DNA from: Cyanosarcina radialis HA8281-LM2
GTDB lineage: Bacteria > Cyanobacteriota > Cyanobacteriia > Cyanobacteriales > CCAP-1448
Reading direction: 5' to 3'
DNA: 64,000 nt
Assembly (NCBI GenBank): GCA_019359615.1
Contig: JAHHHA010000007.1
Location: 62,001-126,000 of the forward strand
How positions within the stretch are numbered: position 1 is the first letter of the stretch; each line of letters opens with the position of its first letter. Of the stretch, positions 394-13,128 are shown piece by piece. The translations under genes and the position numbers were made by a program. The notes below the pieces were generated by a model. That model made no database searches and was not told where the DNA came from. It worked only from the letters and a program-made list of their open reading frames with translations.

Positions 394-736
394 TTTCCTC
401 TGACTTTTGGTAACTTGACAATAGCCATCAAAAATTGATGGTATTTTGATGGGCGATCGCACTCCCAATGAAGAAGATAAAGATTTTCTTCACGAGGAGT
501 CATTTGCAGAAACTTCTTGGGATCGATTTGGTAGTAAACTTGTGGTTCTCCCGAACTGCGATCGACGGTTTAGTTGTATGTCGCCTAAGAAGATCTCTGA
601 GCGTGCTGAGAATCTCGATCGGAAGGGCCGATCGCCTGAGAGTTAACAGAACGACATCGCCAGACCCACCTCGACGATCGGAGGTGAAAATTATAGGTTG
701 GGCGTTAACTTTATTATTTTAACTGCTAAATTGCTT

Positions 737-3700
737 ATGCACCGGATCGCTGCCATCCCAGGAGGCTGGAACCCCCAAGGTGAGGGCGTAATTTTTATCG
801 AACAAACACCAGCCCCCATAGCATTTCTGACGGCGGCCGACACCGACATTCAAACTTTATCTGTAGCAGCGTCTCAGTTACCGCCTGACTTTCCAGGTTT
901 ACGAGTTGCCAATTTGTTGCATTTACAGCAGCAACTAACCATTGATACCTACGCTGAAGAAGTTTTAGAACCAGCTAAAGCGATCGTGCTGCGATTGCTA
1001 GGAGGTAGAGCTTACTGGACATACGGGTTAGAAGTAGTTAAAGAAACCGTAGAACGCACTGGTGCTGCTCTCATAGTTTTACCTGGAGACGATCGCCCAG
1101 ATCCAGATCTCATCGGTCACTCCACCATATCTCTAGCAGCAGTCGATCGATTGTGGCGTTACTTCACAGAAGGGGGAGTTGAGAATTTCGTCAACGCCCT
1201 CAAGTCGATCGCTGACACTTCTTTGGGACAAGCATACAATCCGCCCCCACCAAAAGTCGTTCCTCGCGTAGGAGTTTATGAGTGGAGAGAGAGGGAGAGG
1301 GGAAATACGGAGAATAATCTATGCCCCATGCCCCATGCCCCATGCCCCATGCCCCCTGAAAAAGTGGGGATTTTGTTTTATCGCGCTCATTATTTGGCTG
1401 GGAATACCAGGGTAATAGATGCGCTCTGCCAAGCTTTAGCCGAACGACAACTACAACCAGTACCCGTTTTCGTTTCTTCCCTGCGAGAACCTGACGTGCA
1501 AGCAGAACTGTTGGAGTATTTTCAACCGCCAGAGGAAGAGGGCATTGGCTTGTTGCTCAATACCACTAGTTTTTCGGTTGCCAAACTGGAAACAGAAACA
1601 CCCCAAGTAGATTTATGGCAGCAAATAGATGTGCCAGTATTGCAAGTAATTTTGAGCAGCGGTACTAAAGAGCAGTGGCAATCTCAGTTTCAAGGGCTAT
1701 CGCCGCGAGATTTGGCAATGAATGTCGCTTTGCCAGAAGTAGACGGGCGCATAATTAGCCGGGCGGTTTCCTTTAAAGCCGTACAAACTTGGAATTCGCA
1801 GTTAGAAACCGATGTTGTAGTATACGAGCCAGTTAGCGATCGCATTGCCTTTATCGCCGATTTAGCCGCCAACTGGATGAAATTGCAGCAAACGCCGCCT
1901 GAAGAGCGACGCATCGCCCTAATTTTGGCAAATTACCCCAACCGCGACGGACGGCTAGCTAATGGCGTAGGATTAGACACGCCTGCTAGTTGCATAGAGA
2001 TCCTCAAAGCTTTGCAGCAAGCTGGCTACCGAGTTGAGGACATTCCCCAAACAGGCGACGAACTCATCTGGCGCTTAACCGCTGGAGTCACCAACGATCC
2101 AGAAGGACTAGCTTTACGTCCAGTCAAGCAAGAATTATCACTGGAACAATATCAACAGTATTTCTCTGCATTACCATCTAGCGTAGTACAGCAGATCGGC
2201 GATCGCTGGGGAGAGTGCTTTGCGGGAGGGGGAGATGGGGAGAGGGGGAGATGGGGAGACTCTCTGTGCGCTTCCTCTTTCTCAGTTCCAGGGATTCAGT
2301 TAGGCAACATCTTCGTAGGCATTCAGCCAGCGCGGGGTTATGACCTCGATCCGAGTTTGAATTATCACGCTCCAGATTTAGAGCCTACCCATGCTTATTT
2401 AGCTTTTTACCACTGGGTGCGATCGCACTTTGGCGCACAAGCGATCGCCCATATTGGCAAACACGGCAATCTCGAATGGCTGCCAGGAAAAAGCGTCGCT
2501 CTCTCCGATAGCTGTTTTCCCGAAGTCGCACTAGGCCCGCTGCCTCATTTCTACCCGTTTATAGTCAACGACCCCGGTGAAGGTTCGCAAGCCAAAAGGC
2601 GATCGCAAGCCGTCATTATCGATCACCTCACACCCCCGATGACGCGAGCCGAATTATACGGCTCTTTGCAGCATCTAGAAAGTTTAATCGATGAATACTA
2701 CGAAGCCCAAAGTTTAGATCCGACCAGATTGCCCGTAATTAGCGATCGCATTGCCCAGTTAGTTGCACGAGAGAACTTAGATGGCGATTTGGGAGGAGAG
2801 GGGGAGAGCGGAGAGAGCGAAGAGAGCGGAGAGGGCGGAGAATTATTAACTGAACGCTCAAAACTCGGTTCTGCACTCTCCATTGCCAACATTGATGGCT
2901 ATCTCTGCGAGTTGAAAGAGGCACAGATCAGAGATGGTTTGCATATTTTGGGGCAATGTCCTCAAGGGAGACAATTGCGAGATTTAATCGTAGCGATCGC
3001 TCGCCATCCAGGACAAAATCGTTTAGGCCTTACCCGCGCCTTAGCCCAAGATTGGAACTTAGACTTTGACCCTCTAACAGCAGATTTGTCGGCCGTTGTA
3101 GAGGATACGGCGATCGATCTTAAAGATTGCCGCACAATTGGTGACATGGTAGAGGCGATCGAACGATCTGCTGCCGAATTAGTAGAACAACTCATCGAAA
3201 ATAGCCAACACAAATTTGCACAAGAAAACATCTGTGTTCATCTGTGTTCATCTGTGGTTAAAAACTCCAAAATCGGCATTGCCACCCAAAGAGAATTAAA
3301 CTGGATAAGCGATCGCCTGCTCCCCGCACTGCAACAAACCAACCAGGAAATCGTCAATTTGCTGCGGGGATTCGATGGCAGATATATCGATAGTGGTGCT
3401 GCTGGTGCGCCTACCAGAGGTCGCCCGGAAGTTCTACCCACCGGACGCAATTTTTACTCAGTCGATATTCGATCGATTCCCACAGAAACCGCTTGGATTT
3501 TGGGTAAAAAGGCGGCCGAGAGCCTGATCGAACGTTACACCCAAGAACATGGCGAATATCCCCAAACTCTCGGCTTATCCGTTTGGGGAACCTCTACCAT
3601 GCGAACCGGAGGAGACGATTTAGCCGAGGCCCTAGCCTTACTAGGAGTCCAACCCGTTTGGGATCGCCCCTCGCGGCGGGTAATTGACTTTGAAATTTTG

Positions 3701-4693
3701 CCCCTATCGATTTTAGGTCGTCCCCGCGTTGACGTAACGCTGCGGATTTCTGGGTTTTTCCGCGATGCTTTTCCCCACCAAATCGATTTATTCGATCGCG
3801 CTGTCGCCGCCGTAGCTCGATTAGACGAACCTGCCGCCCAAAACCCTCTAGCCGATCGAGTCCGCCAAGAAACAGAGTTTTGGCAAACAGCCGGGTTAAC
3901 CAAACCACAAGCCGAATTGCGATCGCACCACCGCATTTTCGGTTCCAAACCTGGCGCTTACGGTGCCGGATTGCAAGGTTTAATCGAATCTCAAAATTGG
4001 ACGGACGATCGAGATTTAGCTCGCGCCTATATTAATTGGAGTTGCTACGCTTATACATCAGGGGGAGAGGGGGAGAGGGGGAGAGGTAGAGAAATTATCA
4101 GCAATAACTTGTCTGCTATTTCTGCCCCAGAAGCGTTTGAAAAGCGCCTCCAACAGATGCAAATAGTTTTGCACAATCAGGATAATCGCGAACATGACTT
4201 GCTAGATTCTGATGATTATTACCAATTTCAGGGCGGTTTAACAGTTGCAGTTCGCACTCTGACTGGAAAAAATCCTCAAACTTATTTTGGCGATAATTCT
4301 ATTCCCGAAAACCCCAAAATTAGACTACTAAAAGAAGAAATCGATCGCGTCTATCGTTCCCGCGTTGTTAACCCTAAATGGATCGCTGGAGTCATGCGCC
4401 ACGGTTACAAAGGTGCATTTGAAATGGCCGCGACAGTCGATTATTTATTTGCCTACGATGCTACGGCTAATTGCGTCGAAGATTTCATGTATCGGGGGAT
4501 AGCTGAAGCCTACATTTTCAATGCTGACGTGCAAGCATTCATTCAAGCCAAGAACCCTTGGGCATTACGAGATATGGCAGAAAGATTGTTAGAAGCACAT
4601 CAAAGAGGGTTATGGCAAAAAGTTGACAGAGATACGATCGATAAATTAAGAGCGATCGCACATCAAGCCGAAGGTGCGATCGAGGGCCTGTGA
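737..4693 (+). CDS. cobN: Cobaltochelatase subunit CobN
   Basis: Large subunit of the ATP-dependent cobaltochelatase (Mg-chelatase H superfamily), which inserts cobalt into the corrin ring for B12 synthesis. The start MHRIAAIPGGWNPQ (ATG 737) matches the usual N-terminus of cyanobacterial CobN; an upstream TTG at 698 would add 13 unlikely residues. The family signature around IAHIGKHGNLEWLPGKS lies near residue 575. At 1318 residues it is longer than usual because of five low-complexity in-frame inserts built from short tandem repeats. ChlH, the other superfamily member, is excluded by the N-terminus and by the CobN-type core. It converges with the FecE gene downstream; no terminator is obvious in the 100-bp gap, which holds only a G-rich repeat. 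Confidence 0.93.
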   Translation: MHRIAAIPGGWNPQGEGVIFIEQTPAPIAFLTAADTDIQTLSVAASQLPPDFPGLRVANLLHLQQQLTIDTYAEEVLEPAKAIVLRLLGGRAYWTYGLEVVKETVERTGAALIVLPGDDRPDPDLIGHSTISLAAVDRLWRYFTEGGVENFVNALKSIADTSLGQAYNPPPPKVVPRVGVYEWRERERGNTENNLCPMPHAPCPMPPEKVGILFYRAHYLAGNTRVIDALCQALAERQLQPVPVFVSSLREPDVQAELLEYFQPPEEEGIGLLLNTTSFSVAKLETETPQVDLWQQIDVPVLQVILSSGTKEQWQSQFQGLSPRDLAMNVALPEVDGRIISRAVSFKAVQTWNSQLETDVVVYEPVSDRIAFIADLAANWMKLQQTPPEERRIALILANYPNRDGRLANGVGLDTPASCIEILKALQQAGYRVEDIPQTGDELIWRLTAGVTNDPEGLALRPVKQELSLEQYQQYFSALPSSVVQQIGDRWGECFAGGGDGERGRWGDSLCASSFSVPGIQLGNIFVGIQPARGYDLDPSLNYHAPDLEPTHAYLAFYHWVRSHFGAQAIAHIGKHGNLEWLPGKSVALSDSCFPEVALGPLPHFYPFIVNDPGEGSQAKRRSQAVIIDHLTPPMTRAELYGSLQHLESLIDEYYEAQSLDPTRLPVISDRIAQLVARENLDGDLGGEGESGESEESGEGGELLTERSKLGSALSIANIDGYLCELKEAQIRDGLHILGQCPQGRQLRDLIVAIARHPGQNRLGLTRALAQDWNLDFDPLTADLSAVVEDTAIDLKDCRTIGDMVEAIERSAAELVEQLIENSQHKFAQENICVHLCSSVVKNSKIGIATQRELNWISDRLLPALQQTNQEIVNLLRGFDGRYIDSGAAGAPTRGRPEVLPTGRNFYSVDIRSIPTETAWILGKKAAESLIERYTQEHGEYPQTLGLSVWGTSTMRTGGDDLAEALALLGVQPVWDRPSRRVIDFEILPLSILGRPRVDVTLRISGFFRDAFPHQIDLFDRAVAAVARLDEPAAQNPLADRVRQETEFWQTAGLTKPQAELRSHHRIFGSKPGAYGAGLQGLIESQNWTDDRDLARAYINWSCYAYTSGGEGERGRGREIISNNLSAISAPEAFEKRLQQMQIVLHNQDNREHDLLDSDDYYQFQGGLTVAVRTLTGKNPQTYFGDNSIPENPKIRLLKEEIDRVYRSRVVNPKWIAGVMRHGYKGAFEMAATVDYLFAYDATANCVEDFMYRGIAEAYIFNADVQAFIQAKNPWALRDMAERLLEAHQRGLWQKVDRDTIDKLRAIAHQAEGAIEGL
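1281..1358 (+). repeat. In-frame tandem repeat insert 1 in cobN
   Basis: A GAGAGG-rich stretch followed by about five copies of the heptamer CATGCCC. It encodes an out-of-character peptide (residues about 181-207, with CPMPHAPCPMP) between conserved blocks of CobN. Confidence 0.85.
2223..2262 (+). repeat. In-frame tandem repeat insert 2 in cobN
   Basis: GGGGAGA-type heptamer repeat encoding a Gly/Arg/Asp-rich peptide (GGGDGERGRWGD) just before the conserved block PGIQLGNIFVGIQPARGYD. Confidence 0.8.
2788..2841 (+). repeat. In-frame tandem repeat insert 3 in cobN
   Basis: GGAGAG-rich repeat encoding a Gly/Glu/Ser run (GGEGESGESEESGEGGE) inside cobN; frame kept. Confidence 0.8.
3229..3261 (+). 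repeat. In-frame tandem repeat insert 4 in cobN
   Basis: Three copies of the decamer CATCTGTGTT (last copy CATCTGTGGT), encoding CVHLCSSVV inside cobN. It differs in sequence from the G-rich inserts, so at least three repeat families have entered this gene. Confidence 0.75.
4061..4087 (+). repeat. In-frame tandem repeat insert 5 in cobN
   Basis: GGGGGAGA-type repeat encoding GGEGERGRGRE in the C-terminal third of CobN; frame kept. Confidence 0.75.
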
Positions 4694-7680: not shown

Positions 7681-8067
7681 CTGGAATGCGTATTTGTAGC
7701 TTTATCGATCGAAAATCTGAAAGTTAATTGCAAACTATTGACAATAATTGTACAGATAAATGACCTTAATATGGCAAGAGGCCAGAGCAATCGGCTTTAG
7801 CTTTGACACACCAGCAATAGTCGTGGGTTGGGTTGACGGCAGGAAGCAGAGCGGTATTTGACGGATTGGATCGAGCATGGAGAAAGGATGCGATCGCAAC
7901 AGCGTCACAATCCATCGCCTGCCAGACTTAGATTGCAACAGTTGAAGACGCATCGATCGGTGTTGCTCTCCTCAAATGTCCCTTAAGTGTCTATTGGATG
8001 AAAATGAATACCAAGACCGGATCGAATATCTTCCCCTGAGCCGCTAGCGATCGCACCCAGGTAACAT
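7681..8067. other. Intergenic region ahead of fecCDE
   Basis: 387 bp without a supportable gene. An A/T-rich stretch at about 7725-7760 (minus strand, 45-80 bp before fecC) is where a promoter or Fur site could lie, but I see no clean 7-1-7 palindrome. The remainder has no homology I recognise. Confidence 0.5.
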
Positions 8068-9147
8068 CTATGAGTTTTTAGGCACGACTTCAAGATATCG
8101 TTTAACAAAAATATCATCTAAGATCCTATTCAATCCCAAAATTCCTCCGGTATGCCATTTAGATGTTTCGACGAAGTAAGCTCGATCGTTTTTGACGGCA
8201 TTGAGTGAAGCTATCAACGGGTTTTGCAGTAAAAAGGATTTTGGTTTTCCCACATAGTCCATAAAAAATAAAATATCTGCATCGTATTTATGTAAAACTT
8301 CAATGCTAACTTGACGTTTATCGTCACTAACTGCAATATTATCAATTAAACCTATGTCGGCAAAAATTTCGTGAGGAGCATCTGAAGTCCCAGGAAGAAA
8401 GAAACTACCAGTGTGGTGTTCGAGTACGGTAACTTCTATTTCTTGTGGCTGACGATTCAATTTTTCTCGTAATTTTGCAATCCGAGCTTGGTATTGTGAA
8501 AGCACTTTCTCTGCTTCTACTTCTTGATTAAGGATTTGACCGAGATAGCGCAAGTATTTCTTTATTGGATTATCTTGGTGTTCTTGTAGTAAAACTGTAG
8601 GGGCGATCGCTGATAGTTGTTGATAAATTTGTTCGTGAAAGAATGTTCCCAAAATCAAATCCGGCTTCAGTTTGAGGATCCTTTCTAAAGAAGGACTATA
8701 GACATCTCCAACCCTTATAATTCCTTCTACTTCATCTGGGATTAATCCAGCTAAATCTTCTTTTTCCTCAAGATGATGGCTGGCCATTCCAATGGGCCGA
8801 ATACCAATAGCTAGTAAAGGATCTACTATCCCGGTAGAATCTAATGCAACGATGCGTTTTGGTTCGACTGGAATACAAACTTCTCCTAAGAGATGCTGAA
8901 CCACTCGACAGTCAGGAGCGCGAGCGATTGATAGATTGGGCTTGTGGATAACCGGACTGTAGCAAGCTGTAGTCAAAAGAAAGGATAAAGTCATTAGTAG
9001 CAATGGCTTTATTACCCGATAAATTCTGAATTCTGCCCTCACCCCCAACCCCTCTCCCAAGCTGGGAGAGGGGAGCCGCAGACTGGATAAATTAAACCTA
9101 GTTTTGCTAACCGGATTTAAAATAATCAGGTATTTTTTCACATTCAT
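8068..9147 (-). CDS. fecB: Siderophore-binding lipoprotein, module A (FecB-like)
   Basis: Periplasmic iron-siderophore binding protein of the FecB/FhuD family, delivering substrate to FecCDE. Lipobox LTTAC (Cys62) follows the hydrophobic core VIKPLLLMTLSFLL; the mature N-terminus carries CRVVQHLLGEVCIP, a two-cysteine signature shared by the binding proteins of all four modules. Residues about 11-42 derive from an inserted palindromic repeat; the paralogue at 16203-17216 reads MDVKKCLMSYGVIKPLLL without it. The insert pushes the signal peptide about 33 residues inward. A GTG inside the repeat (9042-9040), preceded by a purine-rich run, would give a normal-length signal peptide and may be the working start. 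Confidence 0.88.
   Translation of the reverse strand: MNVKKYLIILNPVSKTRFNLSSLRLPSPSLGEGLGVRAEFRIYRVIKPLLLMTLSFLLTTACYSPVIHKPNLSIARAPDCRVVQHLLGEVCIPVEPKRIVALDSTGIVDPLLAIGIRPIGMASHHLEEKEDLAGLIPDEVEGIIRVGDVYSPSLERILKLKPDLILGTFFHEQIYQQLSAIAPTVLLQEHQDNPIKKYLRYLGQILNQEVEAEKVLSQYQARIAKLREKLNRQPQEIEVTVLEHHTGSFFLPGTSDAPHEIFADIGLIDNIAVSDDKRQVSIEVLHKYDADILFFMDYVGKPKSFLLQNPLIASLNAVKNDRAYFVETSKWHTGGILGLNRILDDIFVKRYLEVVPKNS
9035..9077 (-). repeat. Coding palindromic repeat in binding lipoprotein A
   Basis: Dispersed palindrome with core CCCCTCTCCCAAGCTGGG and its complement. On the minus strand it is read as LPSPSLGEGLGVRA inside the signal-peptide region of the binding protein. Related copies lie at 9238-9306, 11851-11919, 13230-13307, 19999-20038 and 36054-36096. 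Confidence 0.88.
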
Positions 9148-9186
9148 CGGGCTAGTTGCCTACAGCATTAAAATCTATGACAATTT

Positions 9187-9211
9187 GTATTACTTACCGA
9201 ATAACTAATAC
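9187..9211. other. Hairpin between receptor A and binding protein A
   Basis: Inverted repeat with 10-bp arms (GTATTACTTA / TAACTAATAC, one mismatch) and a 5-nt loop. It corresponds to the perfect hairpin at 17254-17282 in module B. No T-run follows, so it looks more like an mRNA processing or stability element than a terminator. Confidence 0.55.
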
Positions 9212-9237
9212 CATTTTGAAATGCCTAAGAGGTATCT

Positions 9238-9306
9238 TTCTCCCCTCTGCCAAGCCTGGGAAAGGGGCTGGGCGCTGCCGTGAGCCTGCCAAACGGGGCC
9301 AGGGCA
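9238..9306 (+). repeat. Palindromic repeat, intergenic copy in module A
   Basis: Copy of the long subtype of the dispersed palindrome (contains GGCTGGGCGCTGCCGTGAGC), in the opposite orientation to the copy at 11851-11919. The corresponding gap in module B lacks it, so it inserted after the modules diverged. Confidence 0.8.
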
Positions 9307-9359
9307 ATCAACGCTTGTCTCTCACTATTTTTGCAAAATGGTATAACATCAAACCCAAG

Positions 9360-11999
9360 TTAAAACTCCCAACTAACAGAGCCAATAATGGTAAATGGAT
9401 CTCCTCTATTAACAAAAAGCGTGCCACTGCTGCCAGAACTAACATAGTCGATGTCGAAGAGGTTACGAACGTTAATTGCTGCATTGAACCCATTTCGACG
9501 GTAGTAAATTGCCGCATCAGTTCGCAGGTAATCTCCTAATTGGAATGAGTTTTCTAAATCGGCTTGACGATCGCCCACGTAAAATAAACCTAAGCCAAAT
9601 CCTAGCCCTTGCAAATCCCCTTTCTGGACGGTGTAGGTCGTCCAGAGACTCGCCTGGTGTTGCGGTATGCCTTGAAACCGATTACCAACGATACTTGGTA
9701 TGGAATTATCTTTGGTAACTTCGGTATCTGTGAAGGCATAGGCAGCAATAATATTCCAACCTGGTAAAATTTCACCCGTGACATCTAACTCAATACCGCG
9801 ACTGCGTTGTTCCCCAACTTGCACGCTGAAACCTTGTCTCGCTAGTTCGGCATCTGGATCGGGAGTTAGCACGTTGGTTCTAGTGAGATTATAGGCAGCT
9901 AGAGTCGTTGAAAGTTTACCATCGAGAAAATCGGCTTTGACCCCGACTTCGTATTGAGTTCCCCTAGTGGGCTTAAAGGGTTTATTATCTGGATTGCGCC
10001 CGATCGATGGCCGGAAAGATTGACTATAACTAGCATAAAGCGAAACATTCTGGCTGGGCTGATACACTAAGCCAATTCGAGGACTAAAGGCTCCGTCGTC
10101 TTGAGATGTTCTCTCGCCATCTAGGGGGCCGGTTTCATTAGATAGCCAATCGTAGCGACCCCCGATTAGCATTTTCAGATTGTCAGTAAAGGCAATTTGG
10201 TCTTGCAGGTAAACTCCATAGGCTTGGTTAATTTCAAAAAAGTTGAACGGGCCAGTCGGGATTTCTGGCAGTGGAACGTCATAATTGGGATTGAAAATAT
10301 CTAGAGGGGGCAGATCGACTAGATTGTCATAATCGGCTCGATATACTACTTGGCGATCGAAATCAAAGCCAGCCACAAGCTGATGGGATACCGAACCTGT
10401 GTTAAACTTTCCCACCAGATCGATTCCTCCAAAGTATTTATCTATGGGAAAGTCAAAGGAATAGGCAATGTAATCTGTTAGAAAACGATCTTCTAATAAA
10501 TTTGTATACTCAATAAATTTGCCAGATGAATTAGAAAAAGCTGCTCCAAGATTATGACGCAACTGCCAGCGATCGTTAAATTTGTGATTTAGGGTATAAC
10601 CAAATCTTTGAACTTCATTAACTTGCGATGCAAAGTAGGCAGTATAAACGTTGCTAGGTATTAAGCTACCATTACTGAGGATAGGATCGAAGTAAGGATC
10701 GTCATCGAACCTGCTGTAGTCGTAGTAAATATTGAGGTTAGTGCGATCGCCAAATTTAAACGTCATTGAGGGTGCAATCGAGATTACCCGGTCTTGGATC
10801 GAGCTTGAATCGGTAAAATCCCCTCCACCTCGATAGGCAGCAATTAGGCGATAGAGTACGCTTCCGTCTTCAGTCAACGGCCCTGATAGATCGATGCTGG
10901 GTTGATAAAATCCATAATTACCTACCTCAAATCCTATTTTGTAGTAAGGTTCGCTCAAAGGTTGCCGAGTCGCATAATTAACGACTCCACCCGGTTCTAA
11001 CGAGCCGAACAAAACTGAGGCGGGACCTTTCAGTACCTCTACCCGCTCGATGGTTCCTATTGGGGTAAAAGTCGAACTTGAATCGCTTTCAGTGCGCAAA
11101 CCATTGCGGAGACGAGTGGTGCCAAATCCTCCAAATCCTCGAATAGAAACGTTAGCAGCAAAAGGTGAGTTACTGGAGTCAAATTCAACCACGCCACTGA
11201 CTGTCTCTAGTGCCTCGCGCTCGCTTCGCACCCCACGATCTTCTAATACCTGTCGCGGTACTACCTGAATCGATTGGGGAATATCGCGGATTGGGGTATC
11301 AGTTCGCGTTGCCGTACTCGCATTAGAAGGGTTATATCCTTCATCCCGCTCCCCCGTCACTACAATTTCAATCTGCTGTTCGTCTTCAGGCGTTGGTTTT
11401 TCAGGTTGCGGTTCGCTCTCTGCGGTGGATGTACCTGGCGCGATGCTAAAAATCAACCCTCGCTCTGGAGAATCGTAGAACTGTACTTGTGGCAAAGCTG
11501 CTGCCCCCGTCACTGCGATCCGAATGCTGTTGGCAGTTGCTTGAGTCACAGTCACGTTAGTAATTCCACCAGCGGGGTTATCTTGACGAAACTCTCCTCC
11601 TTGAGGAAGCACGAGTACGGCGTTGGGAATATCGGCAATGTACGTTCTATCTGAAGCCTGAGTTACAGGCTGAAGCACTTTCCCTTGAGTGGTTTGCAGA
11701 ATTATCTCTACACCTTTATCGCTGGGATTGACCGCAACTCCCGTAATTTGTACGACACCCTGTGGGGGAACGGAAGAGGGATTAATTGGTGACTGTAGCA
11801 ATCTTTGAGTTATTGTTACTGGAAGTTCGATTTCGCTTGGTTGGGGAGCAGCCCTCACCCCGTTCGGCAGGCTCACGGCAGCGCCCAGCCTCTCTCCCAA
11901 GCTTGGGAGAGGGGAGCCGGAACCTTTTGCTGGAGTGCCGAGCGAAAAAGCGATCGCACTTGTCAGCACCAAGCTTGGAAACAATTTATCTAACTTCAT
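9360..11999 (-). CDS. AMIN/TonB-dependent siderophore receptor, module A
   Basis: Outer-membrane ferric siderophore receptor (FhuA/FpvA-type), 879 residues: signal peptide (KLFPSLVLTSAIAFSLGTPA), repeat-derived insert (about 27-51), AMIN domain typical of cyanobacterial receptors (about 80-200), plug domain opening with TRTDTPIRDIPQSIQVV (about 230-340, including ERVEVLKGPASVLFG) and a 22-stranded barrel ending in SWEF with the terminal aromatic residue expected for outer-membrane insertion. It sits between its AraC regulator (upstream, 127 bp) and the binding lipoprotein (downstream, 212 bp). The barrel is closely related to that of module B, suggesting similar ligands. The ligand itself cannot be read from sequence. 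Confidence 0.93.
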   Translation of the reverse strand: MKLDKLFPSLVLTSAIAFSLGTPAKGSGSPLPSLGERLGAAVSLPNGVRAAPQPSEIELPVTITQRLLQSPINPSSVPPQGVVQITGVAVNPSDKGVEIILQTTQGKVLQPVTQASDRTYIADIPNAVLVLPQGGEFRQDNPAGGITNVTVTQATANSIRIAVTGAAALPQVQFYDSPERGLIFSIAPGTSTAESEPQPEKPTPEDEQQIEIVVTGERDEGYNPSNASTATRTDTPIRDIPQSIQVVPRQVLEDRGVRSEREALETVSGVVEFDSSNSPFAANVSIRGFGGFGTTRLRNGLRTESDSSSTFTPIGTIERVEVLKGPASVLFGSLEPGGVVNYATRQPLSEPYYKIGFEVGNYGFYQPSIDLSGPLTEDGSVLYRLIAAYRGGGDFTDSSSIQDRVISIAPSMTFKFGDRTNLNIYYDYSRFDDDPYFDPILSNGSLIPSNVYTAYFASQVNEVQRFGYTLNHKFNDRWQLRHNLGAAFSNSSGKFIEYTNLLEDRFLTDYIAYSFDFPIDKYFGGIDLVGKFNTGSVSHQLVAGFDFDRQVVYRADYDNLVDLPPLDIFNPNYDVPLPEIPTGPFNFFEINQAYGVYLQDQIAFTDNLKMLIGGRYDWLSNETGPLDGERTSQDDGAFSPRIGLVYQPSQNVSLYASYSQSFRPSIGRNPDNKPFKPTRGTQYEVGVKADFLDGKLSTTLAAYNLTRTNVLTPDPDAELARQGFSVQVGEQRSRGIELDVTGEILPGWNIIAAYAFTDTEVTKDNSIPSIVGNRFQGIPQHQASLWTTYTVQKGDLQGLGFGLGLFYVGDRQADLENSFQLGDYLRTDAAIYYRRNGFNAAINVRNLFDIDYVSSGSSGTLFVNRGDPFTIIGSVSWEF
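11851..11919 (-). repeat. Coding palindromic repeat in receptor A
   Basis: Long subtype of the dispersed palindrome. Minus-strand translation gives SPLPSLGERLGAAV and SLPNGVRA between the signal peptide and the AMIN domain, in the same orientation and reading frame as the copy in the binding lipoprotein. Confidence 0.88.
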
Positions 12000-12035
12000 C
12001 GCTCTACCTACACTCCCTCACATCACTAGACAGTA

Positions 12036-12052
12036 TTAAGAAAATTTCTTAA
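12036..12052. promoter_or_regulatory. Perfect 8-1-8 palindrome ahead of receptor A
   Basis: TTAAGAAAATTTCTTAA, a perfect inverted repeat 36 bp upstream of the receptor ATG. Its position fits an operator or part of the core promoter. It does not closely match the other Fur-like boxes in this window, so the binding protein is unknown. Confidence 0.5.
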
Positions 12053-12099
12053 CTAAACTGGCAGTGTTATGTATAGTAGGCGATCGCTATTTCTAATTT

Positions 12100-12143
12100 G
12101 AACGCTAGAGGGATTTTTTTTGAACGCTAGAGGGATTTTTGAC
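12100..12143. promoter_or_regulatory. 22-bp-period direct repeat, operator A
   Basis: Two exact copies of GAACGCTAGAGGGATTTTT, starting at 12100 and 12122 (period 22 bp, two helical turns). The second copy contains the stop codon of the AraC gene. AraC-family activators bind such direct repeats; equivalents precede the receptors of modules B, C and D. Confidence 0.72.
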
Positions 12144-13128
12144 GATGCTGAAAGTATTGTTTGGGATTCAAACCGAATTTTTGGCGAAAAGCTGAAGCAA
12201 AGTAACTGCGACTATTAAAACCTACCCTGAATGCCACTTCTTCAACTCTCATGTCTCCTAATGCTAAAAGTTGTCTGGCTTTTTCAAGTCGATAGTCGTG
12301 CAAATATTTAAATGCAGATGTCCCAAAAACTTGCCGAAATCCCCGCTTTAATTTAAAGTCATTCAGTCCTACTTGCCGTGCTAACTCTACCAAACTGGGT
12401 GGATGTTCTAAGTTTTCCAGCAAAATTTTCTTGGCTTGGTAAATTCTGTCAATATCACTTACTTTTCTAACTGGAAAGCTGCGATCGCCTACATCCTGCT
12501 CTTGGAATTGTTGGAAATGAAGGGTCATTAATTCCATTGCCTGACTTTCTAGATACATCCGCTTCATCAAGCCTTGGTAGGGACATTGTAGAATATTACA
12601 TAACACCGCCCACATGGGCTGCGCGATCTCCCCTTGCCAGTAATAGGGCTGTACATTACCACCAATTGCAGCTTGGCGTAGGGAATATGGTATTTGTTCT
12701 AACTCTTGTTCGCCGAAACTTTGAAAAAATTGCTGTGGTTCGATTTTCAAATAAATTCTAGAATACTTCTCTCCGGCTTTCCACCACTCAGTTTCTTTGA
12801 GATCGCAGTTACATTCTAAATAGTATTTGCCTACTGATTCGTCAGTTTCGATAGTTAAACCGTGACGCTGGATTATCACTTTTCCTGAAAGAAAAAAACT
12901 CAACCCACATTGCAAGTCATCGAACTCATCTCTCATCCACACGAGTTCGTCAATAAACTCTACTTCATATATACAAAGAGTTAATCCGCTGCGTAACTCT
13001 GCCGACCGCTCGTAGGTATTACAGATATCTACAATCTTCCCTCGATCGATAGTTTCAAAACCTTTCGATTTATGAGAAGTTTCTTGCCACAGTTCGTCAA
13101 AGTCTGTGTTTGTCATAGTTTTTGCCAT
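12127..13128 (-). CDS. AraC-family regulator, module A (PchR-like)
   Basis: 333 residues. The last 100 form the two helix-turn-helix motifs of the AraC family (SLVELARQVGLNDFKLKRGF, then RVEEVAFRVGFNSRSYFASA and KQY). The N-terminal 220 residues resemble the ligand-sensing part of PchR-type regulators, which sense ferric siderophore and activate a cognate receptor (family knowledge). It lies directly upstream of receptor A in the same direction, its stop codon embedded in the direct repeat that is its likely target. Regulated genes are inferred from position only. Confidence 0.88.
   Translation of the reverse strand: MAKTMTNTDFDELWQETSHKSKGFETIDRGKIVDICNTYERSAELRSGLTLCIYEVEFIDELVWMRDEFDDLQCGLSFFLSGKVIIQRHGLTIETDESVGKYYLECNCDLKETEWWKAGEKYSRIYLKIEPQQFFQSFGEQELEQIPYSLRQAAIGGNVQPYYWQGEIAQPMWAVLCNILQCPYQGLMKRMYLESQAMELMTLHFQQFQEQDVGDRSFPVRKVSDIDRIYQAKKILLENLEHPPSLVELARQVGLNDFKLKRGFRQVFGTSAFKYLHDYRLEKARQLLALGDMRVEEVAFRVGFNSRSYFASAFRQKFGLNPKQYFQHRQKSL

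Follow-up and report, generated by a model that had tools for sequence, protein, structure and literature searches.

In the genome of the cyanobacterium Cyanosarcina radialis HA8281-LM2 a G+C-rich palindrome is found in frame within many genes, among them two neighbouring iron-uptake genes, those of a binding lipoprotein (lipoprotein A, lipA) and of a TonB-dependent receptor (receptor A, recA), which lie in the stretch of 64,000 nucleotides analysed here (the window). The palindrome appears as the cargo of two families of miniature inverted-repeat transposable elements (MITEs), whose full-length copies are bounded by terminal inverted repeats (TIRs) and flanked by short target duplications. 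It is probable, in our judgement, that these elements inserted at random and that selection retained the in-frame copies that could be tolerated in loops. Mobile palindromes and MITEs in frame are a known kind of insertion; what appears to be new here is a cyanobacterial MITE family with in-frame, translated-looking remnants in many proteins. The features discussed are collected in Table 1.

The half-palindrome GGGAGAGGGGTTGGGGGTGAGGG (23 nt, at most 2 mismatches) occurs at 208 places (102 forward and 106 reverse) in the 6.5-Mb genome, while the reversed pattern gave no match at all, and the core palindrome was found at 177 sites in 2,416,778 nt of the genome against 3 in the same DNA reversed. 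Thus the palindrome cannot be attributed to chance, and its dispersal, already claimed in the preliminary description, is larger than was noted there. The 2.42 Mb scanned, to which the counts of coding copies given below also refer, consist of long stretches of nine large contigs and of pieces of five contigs picked for holding copies; the nine-contig part (2,287,310 nt) contains 158 palindromes, 24 of them in frame. The palindrome is one among several repeat classes which appear within proteins of this genome, as a k-mer scan for any high-copy repeat gave 631 runs in the same DNA, 82 of them in frame inside open reading frames (ORFs), including tandem repeats translated as GDGEMGRWGDGEMG or STLNTQHSTLNT. 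A search of positions 8000-12200 of the window against Rfam gave no match above the gathering score, and phage records held no match to the element; 10 plasmid records share part of it, up to 40% of the query.

Full-length copies span CCAAATCCGGTT to AACCGGATTTG, with TA steps outside. Altogether 34 TIR pairs were found 60-220 nt apart, some of them spurious or with other content, and their commonest inner length was 112-114 nt. Among 28 stricter pairs, one of which overlaps another, 16 have identical 3-bp flanks, and TNA triplets stand at 24 left and 19 right ends, the background TNA frequency being 6.5%. The palindrome lies inside 20 of the 28 pairs, and in these 20 the flanks are identical in 11 cases and are TNA in 16 (left) and 14 (right). 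The copy at C21:202176 (C numbers denote contigs) is predicted to fold end to end (-65.4 kcal/mol, z -6.27). Transposition would be the mechanism by which such copies were spread. Other elements with TACCATTTTG ends and TNA flanks carry a different palindrome (GGGGCGCAATGCATTGCGCCCC), and MITE ends and palindrome cargo seem, from these sequences, to be modular or exchangeable.

A palindrome was taken as coding when an open frame ran across it and the hexamer coding potential exceeded 0.08 in at least 90 nt on each side. By this test 30 of the 177 palindromes (17%) are in frame inside 21 ORFs of 290-2771 aa, compared with 1938 of 4000 random positions (48%), which means that palindromes are depleted in genes. 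Copies near an N-terminus cannot pass the test, and those of lipoprotein A and receptor A are counted in addition to the 30. The preliminary description had made its proposal depend on the existence of other coding copies, and these are numerous. A Pfam match was obtained in 19 of the 21 ORFs (two ORFs were scanned in two pieces), and the peptides encoded by the in-frame palindromes would be made as parts of these proteins. Candidate broken frames, with coding flanks on one strand and no open frame, amount to 8 of the 177, and some of them may be intergenic. In one region of 46 kb coding for nonribosomal peptide synthetases (NRPS) and polyketide synthases (PKS), C21:42109-88505, 12 of 13 palindromes are in frame. 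Tandem-repeat peptides are also present before several adenylation domains of this cluster.

Sites at which the insert is missing were found for lipA, receptor A and CoaBC. In the search with CoaBC a match was found in 29 of 30 genomes, our own included; 23 relatives were aligned, and five further matching genomes lie outside the alignment. None of the 23 aligned relatives contains the palindrome peptide; their region is 44-56 residues long, against 65 here, where the extra loop measures about 18 residues. In G017, one of the genomes outside the alignment, the match is interrupted at the insert and covers residues 11-248 and 276-429. When CoaBC is aligned with the solved structure 6tgv, which is shorter there, the insert stands opposite a gap. 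Since two other CoaBC sequences (L205 and L206) have different extra residues near the same loop, this loop looks permissive. The extra residues of L206, PPVAKGQEGRG, lie in the same loop and perhaps represent a different repeat insertion.

Nine adenylation domains, which were found by motif, were compared at the loop before YTSGSTG. The palindrome is present there in two domains, in the same orientation and in different proteins (C21:62.0 and 70.6 kb). In a third domain, on C43, a MITE copy stands in the opposite orientation, its left end still intact next to TGA; one domain contains a different repeat, and five contain none of these. The paired C21 copies may go back to a single insertion that was duplicated together with its module. 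In two acyltransferase domains of PKS proteins (C21:44.4 and 49.4 kb), too, the repeat is found at the same loop. In-frame MITE palindromes might be so well tolerated in NRPS and PKS genes that those in the loops of paralogous modules act as homologous handles driving module exchange, and the repeats might also supply portable start sites (purine tract and GTG), possibly in lipoprotein A, but this extension of the argument is speculative and we think it quite unlikely.

In lipoprotein A the insert is a decayed MITE of 103 nt which replaces 4 nt, a net gain of 99 nt or 33 residues. Its left TIR remnant, TTTTAAATCCGGTT, is present in altered form and the right TIR is lost. Apart from the insert the gene is continuous with its paralogues B (in the window) and C (contig C39), the order being ATGAATGTGAAAAAATACCTGAT - insert - TATCGGGTAATAAAG; before TATCGGG there are 42 codons (126 nt) in lipoprotein A, and paralogue C has 9 at the corresponding position. 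A TTA triplet marks the right edge of the insert and is found at the equivalent position in both insert-free paralogues, which fits a TNA target. In the protein search with lipoprotein A approximately residues 8-42 were matched elsewhere in the genome, beyond the palindrome alone, and a DNA search gave units reaching about 100 nt. The element lies within the signal peptide, between its positively charged start and its hydrophobic core.

It is possible, though doubtful, that translation of lipoprotein A starts at the GTG inside the repeat, in which case the MITE would have moved the start codon, SPSLGEGL would be 5' untranslated and receptor A would be the only true coding insertion in the window. 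The GTG is in frame and follows a GAGG tract by about 8 nt (Table 1), the signal peptide obtained from it, MRAEFRIYRVIKPLLLMTLSFLLTTAC, is of ordinary length, and a passage of PMC3733652 says that many N-terminal repetitive extragenic palindromic (REP) sequences may be extragenic because of internal starts. However, paralogues C and B of the lipoprotein have conserved both the MNVKK/MDVKK start and the ATG upstream, and the purine tract before the GTG is part of the stem of a predicted hairpin (-35.8 kcal/mol, z -2.25), in its 3' arm. The net 99 nt is moreover a multiple of 3, which an untranslated leader would not need, although chance would give this in one case out of three.

In receptor A the repeat is a bare palindrome at which no TIRs were seen; bare palindromes of this sort would be remnants of the same elements. 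The signal peptide, recognized by eye and by homology, lies upstream of the repeat and the AMIN domain (residues 88-174, Pfam) downstream, and because of this arrangement read-through of the repeat seems to be required for export; initiation inside the repeat is, from the sequence, unlikely in this gene. Among named relatives, those closest in receptor A belong to Nostoc and Calothrix. The orthologue of Nostoc sp. LPT (67% identity) is free of the repeat, and so is the protein of Calothrix PCC 7103, which matches the signal peptide and the post-repeat sequence (MKLDKLFPSLLLASTFAFSIGTSARADIEVPVT) and reads SIGTSARAD-IEVPVT. The search with receptor A gave 21 genomic matches, some of them partial and two covering only the repeat.

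The preliminary description had pointed out that the two coding copies share orientation and frame, and that the module B lipoprotein and receptor lack them; both points were confirmed, the former by the common reading SP(L)PSLGE.LG...VRA on the minus strand. The translated palindrome in lipoprotein A was likewise found as described, but it is not the whole mobile unit, as the upstream sequence AAATCCGGTTAGCAAAAC... matches elsewhere and is the left end of the MITE. A third copy is indeed located between the two genes (9240-9305, with 89% complementarity to the copy in receptor A along 66 nt), although in the orientation opposite to both coding copies. It is part of an intact MITE which has the same palindrome cargo as the coding copies and ends unlike those of the lipA MITE, and no similar insert is present in the module B intergenic region.

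Table 1. Location and description of the elements, genes and repeats discussed in the text (window positions, unless a contig is given)
Feature	Position	Strand	Description
Lipoprotein A	8068..9147	-	Peripla_BP_2 binding lipoprotein ORF, insert in the signal-peptide region
Decayed MITE in lipoprotein A	9022..9124	-	after MNVKKYL(I); from DNA alignment with paralogues lipB (window) and lipC (C39) and from genomic copies
Palindrome module of the lipA MITE	9035..9078	-	translated SPSLGEGLGVRA
In-frame GTG in the lipA repeat	9040..9042	-	residue 36, about 8 nt after the GAGG purine tract; candidate alternative start (MRAEFRIYRVIKPLLL...)
Intact 135-nt MITE between lipoprotein A and receptor A	9209..9343	+	TIRs TACCATTTTG/CAAAATGGTA; exact TAA/TAA flanks at 9206-9208 and 9344-9346
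Receptor A	9360..11999	-	AMIN, plug and TonB-dependent barrel
Compact palindrome in receptor A	11851..11921	-	nested GCTGCCGTGAGCCTGCCGAACGG segment; translated SGSPLPSLGERLGAAVSLPNGVRA (about residues 27-50), between signal peptide and AMIN domain
In-frame repeats of the CobN-like ORF	1319-1355; 2226-2259; 3229-3259; 4052-4092	+	CPMPHAPCPMP (first); GDGERGRWGD (second)
Repeat-like peptide of another kind	C50:137184 region		STPPTPLDKGGIQNPKS, in the loop before YTSGSTG of an adenylation domain
MITE family			ends TACCAAATCCGGTT...AACCGGATTTGGTA (end sequence also TACCAAATCCGG)
Sister MITE family			ends TACCATTTTG...CAAAATGGTA
Pfam matches of palindrome-bearing ORFs			PKS ketosynthase-acyltransferase, NRPS condensation and adenylation domains, CoaBC, NIR_SIR with Fer2, Orn/Lys/Arg decarboxylase (OKR), hydantoinase A/B
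Further Pfam matches of palindrome-bearing ORFs			UPF0182, amino oxidase, chorismate-binding enzyme, MFS, peptidase S9, metallophosphatase, PP2C

The iron-uptake genes belong to a region (8068-36000, minus strand) of four repeated modules, each made up of a binding lipoprotein and a TonB-dependent receptor; between them lie AraC-like regulators and ABC exporters (most of these genes were named by eye). A CobN-like ORF, also named by eye, at 698-4693 (plus strand) contains several other high-copy or simple repeats translated in frame.

Several observations weigh against random MITE insertion filtered by selection. Among the stricter TIR pairs the two flanks differ in 12 of 28, and the palindrome is missing from 8 of 28. 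The receptor A copy and several NRPS copies are without TIRs, and for bare palindromes REP-type mobility or gene conversion is possible. The between-species empty sites come from two genes only, receptor A and CoaBC; the AlphaFold model of receptor A is too poor to use (mean predicted local distance difference test score 43.8); and the coding status of the copies was assigned by hexamer potential and homology. A transposase with matching ends was not found when three families were searched genome-wide (PF01797, 5 matches; PF13340, none; PF01609, 4 matches), so that an autonomous partner with the same ends, which MITEs are expected to have, is missing from the results; it may have been lost.

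The TNA target would suggest the IS1031 group of IS5. The TNA pattern is present at the TIR pairs; no IS5/IS1031-type transposase with convincing matching ends was found by the PF01609/PF13340 search, the fetched flanks having only TIR-like matches with 4 mismatches. TIR pairs 500-2600 nt apart in the 2.42 Mb numbered 51, all weak, and 5 of them had identical 3-bp flanks. One ORF was scanned from each of three of these five pairs, and no transposase was among them: they gave a short-chain dehydrogenase, a methyltransferase and a weak match to an HNH endonuclease. The two remaining identical-flank pairs are both on C43, one without an ORF of at least 100 aa and the other overlapping an NRPS ORF.

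A different explanation of the mobility, which we consider unlikely, is that the palindromes are REP elements moved by a REP-associated tyrosine transposase (RAYT, of the Y1/HUH type) and that the MITE ends are incidental. Bare palindromes without TIRs do exist, that of receptor A included, matches to just the palindrome part are common across the order (see below), and five Y1_Tnp domains are encoded in the genome, one of them at a locus (L175) with weak TIR-like matches of 3 mismatches nearby. On the other hand, the palindrome core was found at none of the five Y1_Tnp loci, in fetched flanks of up to 1.5 kb, no GTAG/CGTC tag was seen by inspection, and full-length copies have TIRs and TNA duplications. 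Y1 enzymes normally do not use TIR-like ends. A RAYT/REP origin was rejected for want of the palindrome core in these fetched flanks, the L175 matches being judged too weak. The TIR-like sequences of this locus, at about 1246-1332 and at 2376, lie on both sides of a RAYT-like Y1_Tnp gene (C25:33587-33940).

Five of the six frames of the palindrome are open by inspection, and all five are used. The 30 coding copies fall into three phases with 22, 4 and 4 members; after dropping two paralogous duplicates, and with the palindrome types pooled, 20 of 28 are in the PLPSLGEG/SPLLQGEG phase (p = 8e-4 vs 40%). The exact orientation and frame of lipA and recA was found in 9 of 19 copies (p = 0.007 vs 1/5), or in 7 of 17 when these two are left out (p = 0.04), in a count read by eye which omits two paralogous duplicates, two unclassed copies and the related SPLLQGEG-type palindromes. 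Both null values assume that the five open frames are equally likely. The frame common to the two iron-uptake genes is thus a moderate genome-wide bias and not a rule.

The over-representation of the PLPSLGEG-type phase, and of the exact lipA/recA orientation and frame, could mean that the inserted peptide is under selection for a function, such as that of a flexible linker or of an export or protease tag. However, the inserts are found at differing places in proteins unrelated to one another, all open frames and both orientations occur among them, and relatives do without them in both genes tested, receptor A and CoaBC, which makes such a function highly improbable to us. It is hardly credible that the frame through the repeat is chance, even though any copy near a gene would look translated with five of six frames open and the two same-frame copies alone would be weak evidence: in CoaBC, the NRPS and PKS domains, the OKR decarboxylase and receptor A, homologous sequence or a Pfam domain runs on both sides in the same frame, and the candidate frame-broken class is small, so that for internal copies, lipoprotein A being excepted, this reading appears to be answered.

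The palindrome is not limited to this genome. The palindrome core (at most 1 mismatch) was found in 15 of 60 genomes searched, our own included, with 105 occurrences here, 71 in G028 and none in the only other genome of the same family that was included. With the whole element as the query at least 102 of 195 genomes of the order gave a match, in a search which scored few candidates per genome; among the matches listed, most cover the palindrome part only, and those of G106, G173 and G089 reach beyond it. In 19 loci fetched from these genomes 8 of 25 palindromes are in open frames with coding potential above 0.05, an approximate value because the hexamer model of our own genome was used. Coding palindromes are probably not confined to this strain.

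The preliminary description had likened the repeat to the Rickettsia palindromic elements (RPEs). As a rule RPEs use one frame. The likeness holds for in-frame insertion into unrelated coding genes, most of them with Pfam matches, but neither for the palindrome as the whole unit, as the full-length copies are MITEs, nor for a fixed frame, as five readings occur with one phase favoured. By analogy the palindrome family would work like an RPE; membership is not claimed. RPEs are described, in passages of PMC10969869 and PMC3733652, as short palindromic mobile DNA in frame in unrelated genes, both N-terminal and internal, with several families per genome. The differences are the full-length copies with TIRs and TNA duplications, the several frames, the cyanobacterial host and the many NRPS/PKS copies, in a comparison by description.

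Intragenic in-frame palindromes and MITEs are known from other systems as well, and include ERIC, QMITEs and intragenic REPs (passages of PMC10969869, PMC3733652 and PMC5896051). The bacterial MITEs Nezha, of cyanobacteria, and MITEb/MITEe, of Anabaena PCC 7120, resemble our elements, by description only, in their length (about 117-135 nt), TIRs, lack of a transposase gene and target duplication, to which the predicted end-to-end folding of a full-length copy may be added. The GTAG/CGTC intragenic REPs of Opitutus terrae and other bacteria are palindromes within ORFs of unrelated proteins, many coding for 20-30 residues, and cyanobacterial REPs of the GTAG kind are listed, again with N-terminal cases that may be extragenic (parts of PMC3733652); our palindromes differ from them in showing no tag by inspection and in their absence from the fetched flanks of the Y1_Tnp loci. 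QMITE1 and QMITE2 of Coxiella burnetii also add in-frame segments to proteins, but in the part of PMC5896051 concerned they are described mainly for hypothetical proteins and a C-terminal extension, and they are set beside our elements by description only. Tandem repeats in and near a promoter region are reported in a part of PMC2670836. A full-text literature search, judged by titles and abstracts and with most subscription journals outside its scope, gave no report of this element or of in-frame palindromes in cyanobacterial NRPS genes.

According to the random MITE insertion filtered by selection which we favour, the two MITE families carrying the palindrome would insert at TNA with a 3-bp duplication. 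Insertions would land widely, and genic ones would persist only with an open frame at a flexible loop, a linker or an N-terminal region. The ends of the element would then be worn away by additional frame-preserving indels, and a proline/glycine-rich peptide such as SPLPSLGEGLGVRA would remain. The repeats of lipA and receptor A would be two survivors of this kind, probably almost neutral in their effect on function.

Rickettsia is the best-known case of palindromic DNA in frame within proteins, and the present case is a cyanobacterium with dozens of inserts. With one of them in CoaBC, a conserved enzyme which is insert-free in all of the aligned relatives, this cyanobacterium offers a system for testing directly how folded proteins tolerate mobile peptides. 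The annotation and the protein models of such genomes should be used with the warning that they contain transposon-derived loops, and for assembly-line enzymes the insertions suggest a route by which linkers may be gained or modules exchanged.

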